Below, in pieces: positions 29,294 to 36,937 of a stretch of DNA of 39,316 nucleotides. The stretch spans positions 1 through 39,316 of the forward strand of contig NZ_RPOH01000028.1 in NCBI RefSeq assembly GCF_003818135.1, given 5' to 3'. The notes under the pieces are model-generated. The model ran no database searches. It saw only the letters and a program-made list of their open reading frames with translations, and was not told the DNA's origin. How positions within the stretch are numbered: the first letter of the stretch is position 1; every line of letters starts with the position of its first letter. Source of the stretch: Buttiauxella warmboldiae (GTDB lineage Bacteria > Pseudomonadota > Gammaproteobacteria > Enterobacterales > Enterobacteriaceae). The position numbers were made by a program, and so were the translations under genes.

Positions 29294-29357
29294 GTCCAGC
29301 TTCTCCCGCTCCTCATTCATTCCCCCGCTAAATATCTTTTGTGACCCCATTCTCTTT

Positions 29358-29386
29358 TTGCATCTTTCACGTTTGCCATTTATATT
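29358..29386 (+). promoter_or_regulatory. Candidate promoter of the yhf operon
   Basis: A -35-like TTGCAT (29358-29363) and a -10 TATATT (29381-29386) are spaced by 17 bp, with a start near 29393. A CRP-like sequence TGTGA-N6-TCTCT (29340-29355, 8/10) lies just upstream, centred about 45 bp before the start; its spacing is not ideal for class II activation. Confidence 0.45.
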
Positions 29387-29392
29387 CATTTT

Positions 29393-29425
29393 AATGAAGA
29401 TATAAAGATTCAATAAAATGAAGAT
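29393..29425 (+). repeat. AATGAAGAT direct repeats before yhfZ
   Basis: AATGAAGAT occurs at 29393-29401 and again at 29417-29425, 24 bp apart, covering the predicted start site and leader. A TTCATT/AATGAA inverted repeat (29385-29398) overlaps the first copy. Position suits repression by YhfZ itself; this is inference. Confidence 0.4.
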
Positions 29426-29430
29426 TAATT

Positions 29431-30333
29431 ATGAGCCGTAGCTTTATCAAGAAAGAAGGTGTCGCCCAGGCGAGCCTGGCACGTTATTTACTGGGTGAGA
29501 AAAAAGGTAATCGACTGAAAACTATCGACGAACTTGCAACAGAATGTCGATTCTCAGTCGGGCTGATTCAATCCGCATTAAAAACTCTTGAGAAAGCGGG
29601 TGCGGTATCTGTTGAGCGTCGTGGGCGCAACGGCAGCTATCTGGTGAATATGGATAACAAAGCCTTATTGGCTTTTGCCGATATTGGCAATGTCGTGTGT
29701 GCTATGCCTTTGCCTTACACCCGGCTGTACGAAGGTTTAGCCAGTGGCCTGAAGGCACAGTTTGATGGCATACCATTTTATTACGCACATATGCGTGGCT
29801 CAGATGTCCGCGTAGAGTGCTTGTTGAATGGCGTTTACGACCTGGCGGTAGTGTCCCGCCTGGCGGCACAAAGTTATCTTGATAACGGTGATGTTTGCAT
29901 GGCGCTGGAACTTGGTCCGCATACTTACGTTGGTGAACATAAGCTGATTCGCCGCGCAGCATCGCAACACATCAGGCGCGTTGGTCTGGACCCGCGTTCT
30001 GCCGATCAGCGCATCATGACCGAGATTTATTTTTCTGCTCAGCCCGTTGAGATACTCGATGTGCCTTACCACGAGTGTATTAATCGCATAGCGAAAGGCG
30101 AAATTGACGCCGTTATCTGGAACGTGGGTGGCGAGGCCGATTTGGCATTGCTCGGCCTGCTGGCACAGCCATTGAATGGCGACCCTCGTTATGTGCAGGC
30201 CTCCGAAGCCGTGGTGCTGACTCGAGCGGATGATGTGCCCATTCAGCAATTGCTGCGCACGGTGGTGCACAAAAGTGAATTGCTTGCCCATCAACAAAGA
30301 GTGTTACAGGGCAAGCAGGAGCCAAGCTACTGA
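29431..30333 (+). CDS. yhfZ: YhfZ, winged-helix regulator with effector-binding domain
   Basis: 300 residues. An N-terminal winged helix-turn-helix of GntR type (about 10-70, KTIDELATECRFSVGLIQSA with the wing VERRGRNGSYL) is joined to a C-terminal domain (about 75-300) that looks like a periplasmic-binding-protein-type ligand sensor (VCAMPLPYTRLYEGLASGLK, VYDLAVVSRLAA, DAVIWNVGGEADL). It is the first gene of the yhf operon and so the likely regulator of it. The ligand is unknown. yhfY begins 22 nt after its stop. Confidence 0.92.
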   Translation: MSRSFIKKEGVAQASLARYLLGEKKGNRLKTIDELATECRFSVGLIQSALKTLEKAGAVSVERRGRNGSYLVNMDNKALLAFADIGNVVCAMPLPYTRLYEGLASGLKAQFDGIPFYYAHMRGSDVRVECLLNGVYDLAVVSRLAAQSYLDNGDVCMALELGPHTYVGEHKLIRRAASQHIRRVGLDPRSADQRIMTEIYFSAQPVEILDVPYHECINRIAKGEIDAVIWNVGGEADLALLGLLAQPLNGDPRYVQASEAVVLTRADDVPIQQLLRTVVHKSELLAHQQRVLQGKQEPSY

Positions 30334-30355
30334 GTTTTACAAGGGGGAGGAAATA

Positions 30356-30712
30356 GTGGAAGAGCGGCTAAATCTATTGTGTGAAGCGGGAGTTATCGAC
30401 CGTGATATTTGCGACGGCATGTTGGGCGTTGTTGAGCAGCTAGAAAACGTATGGGCAATTCCGGTACGCAATGAACAAGGTGAAATGGCAATGACGCATA
30501 TGGCGAATGCGTTGATGCGTAGCCGCCGTGGCGAGGAAATCGGCCCGCTTGATGAGGCGCTGCTGGAGGAAATTGTCAGCTCGCAGGCCTGGGCAGAACT
30601 GCTGCCGATTCATCGCGCCATGCTGGCACCATTTGACGTAACGCTTCATCCCAATGAAGAGGGTTACCTGCTGGCTAACCTGTTTAGCCTGTGGATGGCC
30701 AGCAAAGGCTAA
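30356..30712 (+). CDS. yhfY: YhfY, stand-alone PRD-domain protein
   Basis: 118 residues from a GTG at 30356, chosen because GGGGGAGG lies 5 nt upstream; longer in-frame starts would run into yhfZ. The whole protein is a single PTS-regulation-domain unit: H48 in MAMTHMANALMRSRRGEE and H98 in LHPNEEGYLLANLF match the two conserved PRD histidines. PRDs are usually paired and attached to RNA- or DNA-binding domains (BglG, LevR), and respond to phosphorylation by HPr or EIIB. A single free PRD with no partner domain is unusual; it may act on YhfZ or on YhfU/YhfT. No enzymatic role is suggested. Confidence 0.87.
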   Translation: MEERLNLLCEAGVIDRDICDGMLGVVEQLENVWAIPVRNEQGEMAMTHMANALMRSRRGEEIGPLDEALLEEIVSSQAWAELLPIHRAMLAPFDVTLHPNEEGYLLANLFSLWMASKG

Positions 30713-30734
30713 CAATTTTTTTCAGCAAACCGCT

Positions 30735-30772
30735 TTGCTTTAAATATTCAAAAAAATGATTATTTAATGATT
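30735..30772 (+). promoter_or_regulatory. Candidate internal promoter and repeats before yhfX
   Basis: TTGCTT (30735-30740) and GATTAT (30758-30763) are 17 bp apart, a weak sigma-70 pair. AATGATT occurs at 30755-30761 and 30766-30772, 11 bp apart, overlapping the -10 and start. A small AGCAAA/TTTGCT hairpin (30724-30739) precedes. The motif core resembles the AATGAAGAT repeats before yhfZ. Confidence 0.35.
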
Positions 30773-30801
30773 TTTCCAGCTAAGCGTCGAGAGGCAAAGG
30801 C

Positions 30802-31974
30802 ATGTTTATTGAAGCACTCAAGGCACAGAATCCGGCGCTAATTGAGGCCGCAATCAAGTTATGGCGTCAGGGCGATATTCTGCCCGACACCTGTGTTATC
30901 GATGTTGATCAGGTCCTGGAAAACGGCCGCCGTCTGCTGGAAATAGCGGAAAGTCACGGCATCACCTTATATCTGATGACTAAACAGCTCGGGCGTAACC
31001 CGTGGATGGCAAAGCGGCTAATAGAAATTGGTTTTCACGGTGCCGTGGCGGTGGATTTTAAAGAAGCTCGCACGTTACGTAATGCCGAAGTCCCTGTCTC
31101 GCACGTTGGGCATTTGGTGCAGGTGCCTTCAGGTTTGGTCCACGAGAATGTGACGTCGGCTACGGAGATGATCACCGTGTTCTCACTCGAAAAAGCACAG
31201 GAAATCTCAGATGCGGCGCAGCGAGCCGGATTGACTCAAGCCATTATGCTGAAAGTCTTTGATGAAAAAGACAAACTTTACCCGGGGCAAGAGGCAGGCT
31301 TCCCGCTGTCTGAGATGGAAAAAACGGCCGCGGCCATCGGCAATATGCCCGGTGTGAAAATCTCGGGGTTGACCCATTTCCCCTGTCTGCTTTGGGACCA
31401 GGATTTGCAGCAAACGCAGCCAACACCGAACCTGCATACGCTTTTGCAGGCACGCGACCGGCTTCGCACTCTGGGTATAGAAGTGGCTCAGCTCAACGCG
31501 CCATCGGCTTCAAGTTGCAGCACACTATCGCTGCTTGCCGAATATGGCGTGACGCATGCCGAGCCGGGACATGCGCTGACCGGCACCATTCCCGCCAACC
31601 AGCGCGGCGACCAGCCAGAACGCATCGCCATGCTGTATCTCACCGAAATATCACATCAATTTCAGGGCAACAGCTACTGCTTTGGCGGTGGCTACTATCG
31701 TCGCGGCCATGCGCAACATGCCCTGGTTTATCCGTTACAGGGCGGTGTGGCTTGCGCAAACGTATTACCCATGGATGACAGCAGCATTGATTACCATATT
31801 GGGCTGGCGGGGGAATTCCCCATTGCTACCCCGGTGGTGATGTGTTTTCGCACCCAGGTTTTTGTTACGCGCAGTGATGTCGCATTGGTTTCTGGAATCA
31901 GTCACGGAAAACCAGTGCTCGAAGCACTGTATGACAGCCTCGGTAACCCTATTTGCGGAGGTTCACGTGAGTAA
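30802..31974 (+). CDS. yhfX: YhfX, fold-type III PLP enzyme (alanine racemase-like)
   Basis: 390 residues. An alanine racemase/ornithine decarboxylase-type barrel with the PLP lysine expected at K61 in [11 protein letters not shown], a His in [10 protein letters not shown], and a C-terminal beta domain with [13 protein letters not shown]. The conserved racemase sequence around the lysine (VKANAYGHG) is replaced, so the substrate is probably not alanine. In the yhf operon it follows yhfY after 89 nt, the longest gap in the operon, and overlaps yhfW by 8 nt. It may racemise, epimerise or decarboxylate an amino-acid intermediate. Confidence 0.92.
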
Positions 31975-33202
31975 GTTTGTGGTGATAGTGATAGACAGTT
32001 TTGGCGTGGGGGCAATGGATGATGTGCCGCTGGTTCGCCCGGAAGATATTGGCGCGAATACGTGCGGGCATATTTTACAGCGCTTCCCACAGCTTCGCTT
32101 ACCGGTGCTGGAAAAACTTGGCCTGATTAACGCGCTGGGCTTTAGCGAAGGGGTGATGCGCCCTTCAGCAGAGGCTGTGTACGGTACTGCGGCGCTGCAA
32201 CATGAGGGAGGAGATACTTTTATGGGCCACCAGGAAATCCTGGGGACTCGCCCACAGGCACCGCTGCGCATGCCGTTCTCAGAAGTTATCGACGAAGTGG
32301 AACGGGCATTAAAAGCTGATTGCTGGCAGGTCGAGCGTATTGGTAACGGCCTGCAATATTTGTGGGTCAATCAGGCGGTGGCGATTGGCGACAATCTGGA
32401 GGCCGATCTCGGCCAGGTGTTTAATATCAGCGCCAATTTAAACGCGATCTCTTTCGATGAAGTGCGCGCCATTGGTGCCATTGTGCGCCGCTGCGTGCAG
32501 GTCGGGCGGGTGATTGCTTTTGGTGGCGAGCTTGAAAGCAGCCAGCAGCTCCAGAGGGCGGTCGAGGAAAAACAGGGAAAATATATCGGCATTAATGCGC
32601 CGCGATCCGGCATTTATCAGCATGGGTTCCAGGTTGTTCATATGGGCTTTGGCGTGAATGCCAGCGTGCAGGTGCCGCAAAAATTATATGACGCAGGCGT
32701 TAAAACGGTGCTGGTCGGTAAAGTCGCAGATATCGCTATTAACCCGCACGGCGTCAGCTACCAGAACCTCGTCGATACCCAGCAGATTATGGATCTCACG
32801 CTGGATGAACTGCAAAAACCGGGCGATGTTTTTATCTGCACAAACATTCAGGAAACCGATCTTGCCGGGCATGCTGAAGATGTCGCACGTTATGCGGAAC
32901 GGCTTGAGGTGGTCGACAAAAATCTCGCTCGTCTGATGGATGCCATGCAGCCAGGCGATTGCCTGGTCGTGATGGCCGACCATGGTAACGATCCCACTAT
33001 CGGTCACAGCAAACACACGCGTGAAAATGTACCGCTATTAGTCTGGCAGCCTGGAATATTCCCTTCCTCTCTTGGTGCCAGAAAAACGCTGTCTGATGTT
33101 GGCGCGACCGTCTGCGATTTCTTCAAAGCGAGTGCGCCACAAAACGGTACATCCTTCCTGTCGCTGCTCAACACTACAAATACTGGAGTCAATCATGGCT
33201 GA
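31967..33202 (+). CDS. yhfW: YhfW, phosphopentomutase-like metalloenzyme
   Basis: 411 residues from a GTG at 31967, with CGGAGG 5 nt upstream; a longer frame to 31862 lies inside yhfX. It belongs to the alkaline-phosphatase superfamily close to DeoB: metal site D10 ([15 protein letters not shown]), the phospho-threonine of the D-T-x-x-G-H motif (T84 in [10 protein letters not shown]), and the C-terminal metal ligands in [20 protein letters not shown]. All catalytic elements appear present, so a phosphate-transfer reaction is likely, though the substrate need not be a pentose. Overlaps of 8 nt with yhfX and with php imply coordinated synthesis. Confidence 0.93.
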
Positions 33203-34085
33203 ACCGCTGCGCATTGACGCGTCGGGTTATACCTATGCTCACGAGCATCTGCATATCGACCTGTCGTCATTCAAAAACAACATTGATTGCCGTCTCGATC
33301 AGTACGGCCCGATCTGTGCGGAAATGAAAACGCTTTATGGATTAGGCGTGCGCAATATCATTGAAATGACCAACCGCTATATGGGGCGCAACCCCCAGTT
33401 TATGCTGGATATTATGCGCGATAGTGGCATGAACGTGGTGGCGTGTACCGGTTACTACCAGCATGACTTCTTCCCGGCGCATGTTGCCAGCACCAGCGTA
33501 GAAAAGCTGGCGCAGGAGATGATCGACGAAATCGAAATTGGCATTGATGGTACCGCGCTTAAAGCGGGCATCATTGCGGAAATCGGTTCGAGCGTGGACG
33601 TGATAACGCCGGATGAAGCAAAAGTGTTTGCCGCTGCGGCCATTGCGCACCGGGAGACAGGGCGTCCAATTTCCACGCACACCTCTTTTAGCACTATGGG
33701 CCTGGAACAGCTGGCGCTACTAAAAAGCCATGGCGTGGATCTTTCCCGAGTGGTTATCGGCCATTGCGATCTGAAGGATAATCTCGACAACATTCTGCGC
33801 ATGATTGAACAGGGCGCGTATGTGCAGTTCGATACCATTGGCAAGAACAACTATTACCCGGATGTAAAACGCGTGGCGATGCTGCAAGAGATCGCCAGCC
33901 GCGGCTTACTCGACCACGTGATGCTCTCTATGGATATCACCCGCCGTTCGCATCTCAAGGCCAACGGCGGTCCCGGTTTTGATTATTTGCTGACAACGTT
34001 CGTGCCTTTGTTGCAGGAGGCGGGTTTCTCTCAGGCCGACGTTGATTTGATGTTACGTGACAACCCCTCTGTCTTCTTTAAATAA
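33195..34085 (+). CDS. php: Php, phosphotriesterase homology protein
   Basis: 296 residues from the ATG at 33195 with GGAG upstream. A TIM-barrel amidohydrolase with H16-x-H18 (YAHEHLHI), a bridging carboxylate at E129 (GIIAEIGSS) where phosphotriesterase has a carbamylated Lys, two further His (STHTSF and [10 protein letters not shown]) and the catalytic Asp in SMDITRRSH. The Glu bridge is known from the E. coli protein. No substrate is known to me; a phosphodiester, cyclic phosphate or lactone is chemically reasonable. It overlaps yhfW by 8 nt and is followed by yhfU after 9 nt. Confidence 0.94.
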
Positions 34086-34094
34086 GGATTTCTC

Positions 34095-34448
34095 ATGAAA
34101 AAGATCGGTGTTGCTGGCTTACAGCGCGAACTCATTAAAAAAACCATCGAAACTTCTGCTCCTGGCTGCTTTGAAGTGTTGATTTATAACGATATGGAAG
34201 CGGCAATGAAGGTGAAATCCGGGCAACTTGATTATTACATCGGTGCTTGTAATACCGGTGCCGGTGCGGCGCTATCTATCGCCATTGCGGTGATTGGCTA
34301 TAACAAAAGCTGCACTATCGCGAAGCCCGGTATCAAGGCGAAGGAAGAGCTGATTGCCAAAATGGTGGCGGAGGGCAAAGTTGCTTTTGGTCTGTCGGTT
34401 GAGCATATCGAACATGCCATTCCGATGCTTATCGCTCACTTAAAATAA
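34095..34448 (+). CDS. yhfU: YhfU, small cytosolic DUF2620-type protein
   Basis: 117 residues, no membrane segment. It begins MKKIGVAGLQRELIKKTIE, reads like a small Rossmann-type alpha/beta domain, and contains GACNTGAGAAL in the middle. It is always paired with yhfT in this operon, 10 nt apart. The size, fold impression and pairing are like a cytosolic B subunit of a PTS-type permease, but I see no certain phosphorylated Cys, so this is only an idea. Function unknown. Confidence 0.85.
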   Translation: MKKIGVAGLQRELIKKTIETSAPGCFEVLIYNDMEAAMKVKSGQLDYYIGACNTGAGAALSIAIAVIGYNKSCTIAKPGIKAKEELIAKMVAEGKVAFGLSVEHIEHAIPMLIAHLK

Positions 34449-34458
34449 AGGCAGCGCT

Positions 34459-35763
34459 ATGGATTTCTACATTCAACTAGCCGTGGTGGCTTGCCTGACC
34501 GGCATGACCGCACTACTGGCACACAAGTCAGCAGCAGTATTCCACGATGGTATTCGTCCGATCCTGCCGCAACTGATTGAAGGCAATATGAACCGCCGTG
34601 AGGCAGGCAGTATCGCCTTTGGTCTGAGTATTGGTTTTGTGGCCTCGGTGGGTATTTCCTTTACGCTGAAAACTGGGCTGCTTAACAGCTGGTTACTGTT
34701 TTTGCCCACCGATATTCTCGGTGTGCTGGCGCTTAACGGATGGCTGGCGTTTGGGCTAGGGGCGGTATGGGGAATACTCATCCTGACCTGTCTGCTTCCG
34801 GTAAACCACCTGCTGACGGCACTGCCGGTGGATGTCTTGGGTTCACTGGGCGAATTGAGTTCACCGGTGGTTTCCGCGTTTGCTTTATTCCCGCTAGTGG
34901 CGATTTTCTATCAGTTTGGCTGGAAGAACAGTGTTTTTGCCGCGGTTGTGGTGCTGATGACGCGCGTACTTATCGTACGTTTCTTCCCGCATCTAAACCC
35001 TGAGTCCATTGAGATCTTTGTCGGCATGATTATGCTGCTGGGAATTGCTATTACCAAAGATAGCCGTGCTCGCGCGCAACAGGAGCATGATGATGGCGGG
35101 GTGTCGGTCTTTGAAGAGCGAACCTCGCGCATTATCAAGAACCTCCCGTACATCGCTATTGTGGGGGGCTTGATTGCAGCCGTTGCCAGCATGAAGATTT
35201 TTGCCGGCTCTGAAGTGTCTATCTTTACGCTTGAGAAAGCCTACACCGCAGGTCTCGACCCCGCGCAGTCACAGACGCTGATTAATCAGGCTGCTCTGGC
35301 TGAATTCATGCGTGGCCTGGGGTTTGTGCCGATGATTGCGACTACTGCGCTGGCGACTGGCGTGTATGCTGTGGCAGGCTTTACCTTTGTGTTTGCCATC
35401 GGCTATCTAATCTCGAATCCGCTGATAGCATTTTTAGTGGGTGCCGTGGTGATTTCCATCGAAGTCCTGCTGCTGCGCTCCATCGGAAAATGGCTGGGCC
35501 GCTATCCATCAGTGCGTAACGCCTCGGATAACATACGTAACGCCATGAATATGCTGATGGAAATGGCATTGCTGATCGGCTCCATTTTCGCCGCTATCAA
35601 AATGGCTGGCTACACCGGCTTTACCATTGCGGCGGCGATTTATTTCCTCAATGAATCCCTGGGCCGTCCGGTTCAGAAAATGGCATCGCCTGTGGTTGCG
35701 GTGCTGATCACCGGTATCGTACTGAATATTCTCTATTATTGCGGCCTGTTTATTCCGGTCTGA
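34459..35763 (+). CDS. yhfT: YhfT, polytopic inner-membrane protein, predicted transporter
   Basis: 434 residues, roughly ten to twelve membrane helices by eye (for example IQLAVVACLTGMTALLA near the start, LLFLPTDILGVLALNGWLAF, LPYIAIVGGLIAAVASM, and VVAVLITGIVLNILYYCGLF at the end). A charged cytoplasmic loop (KDSRARAQQEHDDGG, about 197-212) divides it into two halves. It probably carries the operon's substrate across the inner membrane with YhfU. The stop is followed by a strong hairpin before yhfS. Confidence 0.88.
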   Translation: MDFYIQLAVVACLTGMTALLAHKSAAVFHDGIRPILPQLIEGNMNRREAGSIAFGLSIGFVASVGISFTLKTGLLNSWLLFLPTDILGVLALNGWLAFGLGAVWGILILTCLLPVNHLLTALPVDVLGSLGELSSPVVSAFALFPLVAIFYQFGWKNSVFAAVVVLMTRVLIVRFFPHLNPESIEIFVGMIMLLGIAITKDSRARAQQEHDDGGVSVFEERTSRIIKNLPYIAIVGGLIAAVASMKIFAGSEVSIFTLEKAYTAGLDPAQSQTLINQAALAEFMRGLGFVPMIATTALATGVYAVAGFTFVFAIGYLISNPLIAFLVGAVVISIEVLLLRSIGKWLGRYPSVRNASDNIRNAMNMLMEMALLIGSIFAAIKMAGYTGFTIAAAIYFLNESLGRPVQKMASPVVAVLITGIVLNILYYCGLFIPV

Positions 35764-35774
35764 TTTCTCTCTTT

Positions 35775-35800
35775 GCCCACGGCCCTAAAGGGCGGTGGGC
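35775..35800 (+). other. Hairpin between yhfT and yhfS
   Basis: GCCCAC-G-GCCC (35775-35785) pairs with GGGC-G-GTGGGC (35790-35800) around TAAA: ten base pairs with one G.G mismatch. No U-tract follows. It may stabilise the upstream mRNA 3' end or lower yhfS expression. Confidence 0.55.
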
Positions 35801-35817
35801 TTCACGGAGCGCATAAA

Positions 35818-36903
35818 GTGAAAACCTGGCCTTTGCAGAGCCTGACGATGGAACAGGCGCAGCATAAACAGTTCCAACTGGTTGATATTATTTGCCGCCA
35901 TTTTCCCGGCAGCGATTTTCTTAACGCAGGCGATCTTGGCCTGGTTCCGGGGCTGAATCAGCCGCAAATGACTCACCGGGTTGAATCTGTCCTGGCAGAT
36001 TTCTTCGGTACATCTGCAGCGGTGATGGTGCAGGGGGCAGGGACAGGCGCCATTCGCAGCGGGCTGGCGGTATTACTGAAAGCGGGTGGCCGCTTGCTGA
36101 TTCATGATGCACCGCTGTATCCCACAACGGCGGCGATCGCTGAGCAAATGGGATTACAGCTTATCCGTGCCGATTTTAATCAGCTTGATAAGGTTAAAAA
36201 GGTTATTGAAAATCACCGGCCACAGGCCGCACTGATTCAGCATACGCGCCAGAAAATGGATGATTCATACGGATTACAAGAGGTTATAGCTTGTTTTAAC
36301 CAGTATGGATTAGCGTCGTTAACCGATGATAATTACGCGGTGATGAAGGTGGATAAGATTGGCTGCGAATGTGGCGCGACGCTTGCAACATTTTCCTGTT
36401 TTAAACTCTTTGGGCCACCGGGAATTGGCGTGGTGGTTGGGGATGACAAAGCGGTGAAGGCGGTGCGACAGAGTATGTATTCAGGTGGGAGTCAGATTCA
36501 GGGTTTCCAGGCTATGGACGCGTTACGTGGGTTAGTCTTCGCACCTGTGATGCATGCGGTTCAGGCTCAGGTAAATGATAGCCTGGTTAAGCAACTCAGC
36601 ACAGGGAGTATTCCACTGGTGAAACAAGCATTTATCGCCAATGCGCAATCTAAAGTGCTGTTGGTGGAGTTTCATCAACCGATTGCTGAAAAGGTTCTGG
36701 CGAAGGCCCAACGGCTGGGGGCATTGCCCTATCCGGTTGGTGCTGAGTCCAGATATGAAATCCCGCCGCTTTTTTACCGGGTATCGGGCACGTTCCGTCA
36801 GTCTGACCCGACGCTTGAGCAGCGTATGATTCGCATCAATCCAAACCGCAGTGGCGCGCAGACGGTACTGAGAATATTGCGAGAGAGCTGTGAGGGATTA
36901 TAA
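35818..36903 (+). CDS. yhfS: YhfS, fold-type I PLP enzyme
   Basis: 361 residues from a GTG at 35818, with GGAG 8 nt upstream; the frame is open farther to 35773 but that stretch is the intergenic hairpin. PLP features are the phosphate-binding GAGTGAIR (73-80), Asp in SLTDDNYAVMK (D170/D171) and the lysine K196 in TFSCFKLFGPPG. The general type is aminotransferase/beta-eliminating lyase. With YhfX it gives the operon two unrelated PLP enzymes. It is the last gene of the yhf operon, and a palindrome begins in its stop codon. Confidence 0.93.
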   Translation: MKTWPLQSLTMEQAQHKQFQLVDIICRHFPGSDFLNAGDLGLVPGLNQPQMTHRVESVLADFFGTSAAVMVQGAGTGAIRSGLAVLLKAGGRLLIHDAPLYPTTAAIAEQMGLQLIRADFNQLDKVKKVIENHRPQAALIQHTRQKMDDSYGLQEVIACFNQYGLASLTDDNYAVMKVDKIGCECGATLATFSCFKLFGPPGIGVVVGDDKAVKAVRQSMYSGGSQIQGFQAMDALRGLVFAPVMHAVQAQVNDSLVKQLSTGSIPLVKQAFIANAQSKVLLVEFHQPIAEKVLAKAQRLGALPYPVGAESRYEIPPLFYRVSGTFRQSDPTLEQRMIRINPNRSGAQTVLRILRESCEGL

Positions 36904-36937
36904 ATGACATCGCCCAGGTAAAAAGGGCGATGTCATT
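36903..36937. terminator. Hairpin between converging yhfS and cysG
   Basis: A perfect 13-bp stem, AATGACATCGCCC (36903-36915) with GGGCGATGTCATT (36925-36937), lies between two converging genes. U-tracts are short on both strands, but position and stability suggest a bidirectional terminator. Confidence 0.7.

Follow-up and report, generated by a model that had tools for sequence, protein, structure and literature searches.

The conserved yhf operon of Buttiauxella warmboldiae, a possible route for the degradation of a phosphorylated amino-sugar compound

The yhf operon is an old unit shared across three phyla (Pseudomonadota, Bacillota and Fusobacteriota). We tentatively propose that its products take up and break down an amino-sugar compound that is already phosphorylated and linked to an amino-acid-like group, with a hexosamine-1-phosphodiester, for example GlcN(Ac)-1-P-O-amino acid, as the probable substrate. 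The copy described here lies in a 39,316-nucleotide stretch of Buttiauxella warmboldiae DNA, analysed as a whole and referred to as the window. The operon itself has been described before, as have several crystal structures of its proteins. The linkage to nagB, Glu254 of YhfX, the RpiB/LacAB fold prediction for YhfU, the lack of any solved-fold match for YhfT and the operators ahead of yhfZ and yhfX are new.

Eight intact co-directional open reading frames (29431-36903, + strand) are the orthologues of E. coli yhfZYXW-php-yhfUTS (Table 1). Overlaps of 8 bases link yhfX to yhfW and yhfW to php, and gaps of 9-10 bases separate php from yhfU and yhfU from yhfT; the tight eight-gene unit of the preliminary description is thus borne out. 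Pfam or NCBIfam models for YhfZ_C, Ala_racemase_N and YhfX-like_C, Metalloenzyme, PTE, DUF2620, YhfT and YhfS-like_C are matched above their cut-offs, and YhfW scores 665 bits with PRK12383. The window YhfT shares 97% identity with that of Buttiauxella gaviniae (the nearest relative found) and 86% with that of E. coli. When the window genes are compared with those of four relatives, dN/dS is 0.018-0.130 in 28 of 32 comparisons, dS being saturated in the other four. The catalytic residues named earlier are intact, as counted in family alignments across relatives with the window taken once: Lys61 of YhfX in 107/107, His16, His18 and Glu129 of Php (together with His162, His190 and Asp247) in 105/105 and Lys196 of YhfS in 67/67, position 84 of YhfW being Thr in 88 and Ser in 10 of 98. 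The two PLP enzymes indeed have unrelated folds, type III for YhfX and type I for YhfS.

Table 1. Genes and predicted operators of the yhf operon in the window
Feature	Position	Strand	Description
Operator 1 (predicted)	29382-29401		YhfZ-type, ATMTTCA-N6-TGAAKAT, 0 mismatches
Operator 2 (predicted)	29406-29425		1 mismatch
yhfZ	29431-30333	+	Regulator with HTH_41 and YhfZ_C domains; solved relative 2ozz
yhfY	30356-30712	+	GTG start; small PRD-like protein
Operator 3 (predicted)	30744-30763		yhfY-yhfX gap, 1 mismatch
yhfX	30802-31974	+	Fold-type III PLP enzyme; K61, Glu254 in EPGH; structure 4kbx
yhfW	31967-33202	+	GTG start; metalloenzyme superfamily, phosphopentomutase-like; T84 at nucleophile position
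php	33195-34085	+	Phosphotriesterase-family metal hydrolase; H16, H18, E129, H162, H190, D247; structures 4lef, 1bf6
yhfU	34095-34448	+	DUF2620; predicted RpiB/LacAB fold; Cys52
yhfT	34459-35763	+	Polytopic membrane protein, putative permease
yhfS	35818-36903	+	GTG start; fold-type I PLP enzyme, K196; structure 4j8l

Among 117 YhfT loci, a set that includes the window and some duplicates, YhfU is found in all 117, YhfX and Php in 113 each, YhfW in 106 and YhfS in 71, and yhfU adjoins yhfT in 112 of 115 cases. This strong co-occurrence supports the earlier claim that the enzymes form one system. In a set of 398 Bacillota genomes, YhfX is present in all 12 that encode an over-cut-off YhfT; a 13th (G562) has a YhfT match below the cut-off and no YhfX. 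YhfX without YhfT occurs in only 3/398 (one S-X-W group at a contig edge and two divergent copies), one more divergent copy being at a separate location within a YhfT-bearing genome. YhfS was found in 7 of the 25 genomes or records searched, the operon copy being the sole match in each. This check for enzymes occurring apart from the operon covered YhfX and YhfS. The occurrence of the operon is patchy (8/398, 13/398 and 15/80 genomes); DNA matching most of it is carried by 5,016 of 5,426 complete E. coli genomes. YhfW is missing from nine loci for reasons other than a contig end (seven from Yersinia, L141 and L190), Php from 4/117 and YhfS from 46/117. Since each of these is absent in some lineages, the four enzymes do not constitute one fixed linear pathway and no single reaction order fits every locus.

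Several features of the locus set define these counts. L009 and L147 are one record, L010 and L075 come from one species, L064 and L092 have an identical YhfT end, and L069/L079 and L072/L082 are two copies per genome, in one genome each. Contig ends account for gene gaps in L033, L055 and perhaps L042 and L154, and in L077 the Php match is an incomplete frame that lies 5 kb from the other genes, where the locus ends. For the architecture table, L001-L007 and the short L093-L128 were set aside in favour of longer sequences from the same sites or relatives; L008 was dropped (weak match) and L140 lacks YhfT. One relative search consisted of the best 80 of 203 and is biased to close relatives.

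YhfX carries the alanine racemase barrel (PF01168, Ala_racemase_N, 65.8 bits) with its PLP-binding Lys61. Its Glu254, found in 107/107 relatives, falls in the column of alanine racemase Arg209, as judged from a distant sequence alignment only. According to the available part of PMC5025676, Arg209 of E. coli Alr adjoins the pyridine nitrogen of PLP. As YhfX has Glu254 in place of this arginine, racemisation, the role first assigned to it, is disfavoured.

The preliminary description also included a two-part membrane system. YhfT is clearly a membrane protein; YhfU is predicted to be a soluble Rossmann-type protein with an RpiB/LacAB fold and has one borderline hydrophobic stretch (1.74 vs a threshold of 1.6). 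Foldseek matches its predicted model to RpiB/LacAB with a probability of 1.00 (ranks 1-17, TMq 0.63-0.77), at only 9-19% identity to these 17 best-ranked matches, and PF02502 (LacAB_rpiB) gives 13.5 bits, below its 24.7 cut-off. Cys52 is found in 110/110 rows. Its loop resembles that of a PTS IIB protein, but every one of the nine hits at E <= 0.001 is an RpiB protein, and PTS IIB is absent from the 50 structure matches listed. YhfT resembles no solved structure at E <= 0.001 (the best match has E 0.083 and TM 0.12), and hhalign of its two halves detected no internal repeat (probability 0.2%).

An inverted-repeat operator is conserved ahead of both yhfZ and yhfX. Sites with at most two mismatches are found within 150 bases upstream of yhfZ in 71 of 112 regions (1.0% of mononucleotide shuffles) and upstream of yhfX in 40 of 112 (0.7% of shuffles), and operator 3 suggests a second control point between yhfY and yhfX. 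A genome scan allowing one mismatch yielded 14 operator-like sites, three of them in the yhf operon, the backward control giving one. Since the five inspected among the other 11 all lie inside open reading frames, no broader YhfZ regulon is claimed. YhfY has no Pfam match and scores 22.5 bits with the PRD model TIGR03582 (cut-off 69.35); its His48 is kept in 103/103 rows.

Neighbouring genes, most of whose family names derive from one scanned member per cluster, give indications about the substrate. A glucosamine-6-phosphate deaminase gene, nagB (TIGR00502 over cut-off in 6/6), is located within the operon or next to it in six loci from Vibrionaceae, Bacillota and Fusobacteriota (L077, L084, L085, L133, L146 and L191). 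Five of these are inside co-directional runs, against a chance expectation of 0.05-0.15, assuming a 3,500-gene genome that holds 1-3 nagB. Three divergent YhfX copies outside the operon neighbour a BadF/NAGK-like kinase (L176 and L178) or AgaS-like SIS and M20 deacylase genes (L177). From the nagB linkage and these NagK-like and AgaS-like genes, the intermediate is likely an amino-sugar phosphate. A protein with a CBM5/12 (chitin-type) module is encoded after yhfW in L066. The earlier idea of a phospho-amino-compound pathway is thus made likely by its neighbours, without the racemisation step. Of 39 Bacillota/Fusobacteriota loci, among which one record appears twice, 16 carry an amidase-like gene, with the Lys/Ser/Ser motif kept in 16/16, and PTS genes lie upstream of the operon in L010, L074, L075 and L143. 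No sugar-kinase cluster common to at least two loci was seen among the co-directional neighbours (compared by eye over the first 110 residues); as YhfW, NagB and the RpiB-fold YhfU look phosphosugar-related, the phosphate probably arrives on the substrate itself or via a PTS.

Other observations speak against the amino-sugar proposal. nagB accompanies only 6/117 operons and was seen with none of those from the Enterobacteriaceae relatives of the window. In four Enterobacterales loci, the operon is followed by acid-phosphatase genes of the PhoC-like PAP2 and e(P4)-like types, whose products begin with signal-peptide-like sequences and would remove phosphate outside the cytoplasm. The nearest characterised relative of YhfW is a pentose rather than a hexosamine mutase, and many PTE-family relatives of Php are lactonases.

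Taking these data together, we infer a scheme that is conditional throughout, from the transport step and the phosphodiester to each of the reactions, the order in which they occur and the substrate itself. YhfT and its soluble partner YhfU would import the compound, from which the amidase-signature-like enzyme, where present, would take off an N-acyl group. Php would then cleave the ester, releasing a sugar-1-phosphate. The amino-acid part would be the target of YhfX, joined by YhfS in some lineages; their quinonoid-type chemistry would be an elimination, an aldol cleavage or a decarboxylation rather than a racemisation. YhfW would shift the phosphate from C1 to C6, and NagB, operon-borne or encoded elsewhere, would convert GlcN-6-P to Fru-6-P and ammonia. 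YhfZ would bind the paired operators and sense the compound or an intermediate, and the PRD-like YhfY may couple the operon to PTS status. It is doubtful, though conceivable, that YhfT-YhfU represents a new transporter class (an RpiB-fold, Cys-bearing soluble subunit with a permease of unseen fold) feeding an undescribed breakdown of hexosamine-1-phosphodiester amino-acid conjugates, with YhfX switched to an electron-sink lyase.

The proximity of YhfW to DeoB and the predicted RpiB-like fold of YhfU could instead indicate the degradation of a pentose-phosphate (ribose-1-phosphate, nucleoside-like) amino compound by a true phosphopentomutase and an RpiB-type isomerase. This is rather unlikely: YhfW scores 155.6 bits with the deoB model TIGR01696 (cut-off 341.2), its cap region aligns only with large gaps, a separate deoB is present in the genome (650.9 bits), and the nagB, AgaS-like and NagK-like neighbours would be left unexplained. 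The same neighbours, the metalloenzyme YhfW and the patchy distribution make a sugar-free role in amino-acid or PLP housekeeping improbable; here, Php would act as a lactonase and YhfW as a mutase of amino-alcohol phosphates, in keeping with the two PLP enzymes and with weak YhfX profile matches to alanine racemase, PLP-homeostasis proteins and D-threonine aldolase.

Degradation of a cell-wall fragment (muramic acid or an amino-acylated wall sugar) is likewise improbable. It would agree with the amidase-like gene, an M19 dipeptidase near L129 and a serine hydrolase of beta-lactamase fold encoded in seven Bacillota/Fusobacteriota loci (six that cluster together, plus L157, 64% identical to L152). 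However, the M19 link is a single scanned case, the only hydrolase scanned with NCBIfam is PBP4B-like with a score below cut-off (226.7 vs 385), and no MurQ-type etherase was present among the few neighbours scanned. Detoxification of organophosphates or phosphonates centred on Php is very improbable: Php belongs to the PTE family (PF02126, 392 bits), but reaches only 81.9 bits with the OPH model NF041153 (cut-off 500), and the few neighbours scanned include no phosphonate gene.

Neither a function for the yhf operon nor biochemical data on it were found in the literature searched, and the available parts of PMC7513527, PMC4448311, PMC11227560, PMC3423039, PMC5293155, PMC2965389, PMC7937436, PMC10652928, PMC4401734, PMC6411801 and PMC5025676 report no tested yhf substrate. 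The same part of PMC10652928 describes a reduced E. coli strain from which the operon was deleted; yhfW as an orphan-reaction candidate, in that of PMC3423039, has an E of 0.47, too weak for use. In the best-studied bacterium, the operon thus stands as an orphan pathway whose solved structures lack a substrate, and the amino-sugar-phosphate prediction, if it narrows the compounds, makes the pathway testable. If true, it would give enteric and marine bacteria one more nutrient source and perhaps reveal a transporter of a new type.

The eight genes and their order are shared with E. coli K-12 (b3376-b3383, yhfS-yhfZ), where they are annotated as putative or uncharacterised and lie beside frl, whereas the window operon lies beside cysG. 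RefSeq labels the K-12 YhfY as PRD, yet the window protein scores below the model cut-off. YhfX shares its N-terminal PLP barrel and Lys61 with alanine racemase and fold-type III decarboxylases, but its Glu254 resembles LysA rather than alanine racemase. YhfS has the fold-type I core of methionine gamma-lyase and cysteine desulfurase, but differs by its own C-terminal domain and by scores far below the cut-offs of the NCBIfam models touched. YhfW belongs to the DeoB superfamily, and alignment gives it metal-ligand positions and a Thr/Ser that we take to be a phosphorylatable nucleophile, although its middle region diverges. Php has the PTE domain and metal histidines of phospho-furanose lactonases and OPH, but is below the cut-off of both models and has Glu129 at the bridging position, where many PTEs have a carboxylated Lys. 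Finally, YhfU has a predicted fold and a Cys-containing glycine loop like those of RpiB/LacAB isomerases, but differs from them by its 117 aa, its low identity and its yhfT neighbour.

The yhf operon of the window (yhfZ-Y-X-W-php-U-T-S) has the same eight gene types in the same order as b3383-b3376 of Escherichia coli K-12; the window itself is closest to Buttiauxella (YhfT 97% identical to that of B. gaviniae). Pfam and NCBIfam assign YhfZ, YhfX, YhfW, Php, YhfU (DUF2620), YhfT and YhfS to families, and YhfY has only a sub-threshold PRD match. Structures are solved for YhfX (4kbx), YhfS (4j8l), Php (1bf6, 4lef) and the ligand domain of YhfZ (2ozz); a structure search for YhfW gave distant relatives only. 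The catalytic residues named in the preliminary description are correct and conserved across the aligned relatives, Thr84 of YhfW being replaced by Ser in 10 of 98 rows. The yhf genes are under purifying selection, since dN/dS is 0.018–0.130 in 28 of 32 gene comparisons (the other 4 are saturated). The stretch from the 3' half of yhfZ to the start of yhfS is present in 5,031 of 5,426 complete E. coli genomes (5,016 with coverage of at least 80%). Deletion of yhfS in E. coli was reported to lower biofilm by ~30% (PMC11227560).

Coordinates of the window operon and of two phosphatase-like genes in related operons
Locus	Positions	Feature	Context
Window	29431-36903	Eight open frames, all co-directional	yhf operon
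L084	16584-17333	ComB-family (2-phosphosulfolactate phosphatase-like) gene	After nagB, Thalassobacillus operon
L091	12264-13004	Tyrosine-phosphatase-family gene (Y_phosphatase3)	After php, Breznakia operon

YhfT is rare, occurring in 8 of 398 genomes of Pseudomonadota (7 above cut-off), 13 of 398 of Bacillota (12 above cut-off) and 15 of 80 of Fusobacteriota. YhfU is present at all 117 loci with YhfT, and YhfZ and YhfY at 110 each. The gene set around YhfT thus recurs, and of the four enzymes YhfX and Php occur at 113 loci each, YhfW at 106 and YhfS at 71. The Vibrionaceae, Yersinia and Serratia-type loci that were read lack YhfS, YhfW is missing at nine loci (seven of Yersinia, plus L141 and L190), and Php at L059, L062, L139 and L142; these absences are genuine. 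A search of 25 genomes or records detected YhfS in 7, always as a single copy within the operon. Four loci are devoid of YhfX: L033 and L055, which are contig ends, and two second copies from Photobacterium genomes in which a full operon is present as well. In two Photobacterium genomes (L069/L079, L072/L082), a reduced Z-P-U-T second copy lies ~13 kb from the full operon. Among the first 113 loci, 112 of 115 yhfT genes adjoin yhfU. The reverse search with YhfX_C retrieved 15 of 398 Bacillota genomes, namely the 12 with above-cut-off YhfT and three others, one on a contig that begins inside S-X-W. A divergent YhfX occurs in G730, in G561 and as the second copy of G801; the sequence read around each contains none of W, Php, U, T and S. 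In the order of the window, YhfX occurs in 7 of 187 genomes, six with YhfT and the seventh outside the YhfT search. The steadiest core of the system is YhfX-YhfU-YhfT. All eight families also occur on an 11.7-kb record from human faeces filed as unverified bacteriophage (L011, MT836239.1), which is probably misfiled bacterial or mobile-element DNA; NZ_CP134663.1 and two similar 4.8–4.9 Mb records, named E. coli in the plasmid collection, look like misfiled chromosomes.

The neighbours of the operon include amino-sugar genes. nagB lies in or beside it at six loci (L077, L084, L085, L133, L146, L191), all six proteins exceeding the TIGR00502 cut-off. It takes at least three different places (ahead of Z, between W and U, or behind W or X), and the best-scoring model is of two different subtypes. 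For the five nagB inside co-directional runs, the chance expectation is 0.05–0.15 from 175 non-core genes, assuming a 3,500-gene genome with one to three nagB. The three loci of divergent YhfX carry either BadF/NAGK-type kinases (L176, L178) or, at L177, an AgaS-like SIS protein together with an M20 deacylase; because the NagK and AgaS models score below their cut-offs, only kinship is claimed for these putative relatives. In Photobacterium, an extra gene follows the operon, with a CBM5/12 module in the one scanned (L066). At four Vibrio-type loci (L010, scanned; L074, L075 and L143, by clustering), lactose/cellobiose-type PTS genes and a DUF7916 protein gene lie immediately upstream. Amidase-signature-like genes are present at 16 of 39 Bacillota/Fusobacteriota loci (one record is counted twice), and all 16 keep the Lys-Ser-Ser pattern (above the Pfam cut-off at L133 and L134, below at L009 and L067). 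Seven of these 39 loci have a hydrolase of beta-lactamase fold; the one compared with NCBIfam is PBP4B-like. Acid phosphatase genes adjoin four Enterobacterales operons.

The predicted structure of YhfU (pLDDT 95.6) has nine matches at E ≤ 0.001, every one an RpiB enzyme, and Cys52 of its GxCxxGxG loop is invariant in all 110 rows. That of YhfT (pLDDT 84.7, pTM 0.81) is mostly helical, and its best PDB match has E 0.083 and TM 0.12. Adjacency and topology suggest that YhfTU is a transporter. A near-perfect inverted repeat, ATMTTCA-N6-TGAAKAT, has two copies ahead of yhfZ and one ahead of yhfX; when up to two mismatches are allowed, it occurs upstream of Z in 71 and of X in 40 of 112 regions, versus ~1% of mononucleotide shuffles in each case. 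From its position, we infer that this operator is read by YhfZ.

The best reading is that the yhf operon takes in and degrades an amino-sugar compound that carries a phosphate and is linked to an amino-acid-like group. After import of this compound, Php would hydrolyse the ester, YhfX (and YhfS) would carry out PLP chemistry on the amino part, YhfW would shift the phosphate from position 1 to 6, and GlcN-6-P would enter glycolysis through NagB. Since no sugar-kinase cluster common to at least two loci was seen by eye among co-directional neighbours, the simplest source of phosphate for the phosphosugar enzymes is the incoming compound itself or a PTS. Amino-sugar phosphate catabolism as a broad claim is better supported than any individual step, and GlcN(Ac)-1-P-amino-acid as the substrate is a guess. 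The operon was already known, as were its families and several structures; the open-access papers searched, which leave out most subscription journals, gave neither a substrate nor a pathway for it. As far as these searches show, the definition of core and accessory genes, the link to nagB and amino sugars, the predicted YhfU fold, YhfT without fold match, the operators and the argument from Glu254 of YhfX are new.

This argument bears on the racemisation previously attributed to YhfX. In alanine racemase, an Arg (Arg-209 in E. coli) keeps the pyridine nitrogen unprotonated (PMC5025676); the sources describe Glu at that position in ornithine decarboxylase (PMC6411801) and Gln in D-threonine aldolase (PMC4401734). 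All 107 rows of the YhfX alignment have Glu at position 254, and so does a second alignment of 33 rows, in which the divergent copies are included. YhfX is probably not a racemase, and the presence of Glu254 in the column of the racemase Arg points towards a decarboxylation, elimination or aldol reaction. In a distant alignment (15–20% identity) to the E. coli proteins Alr and LysA, YhfX differs from alanine racemase, which by its verified numbering has Arg-209 in this column (VRPG), and resembles LysA, which likewise has Glu (EPGR, versus EPGH in YhfX).
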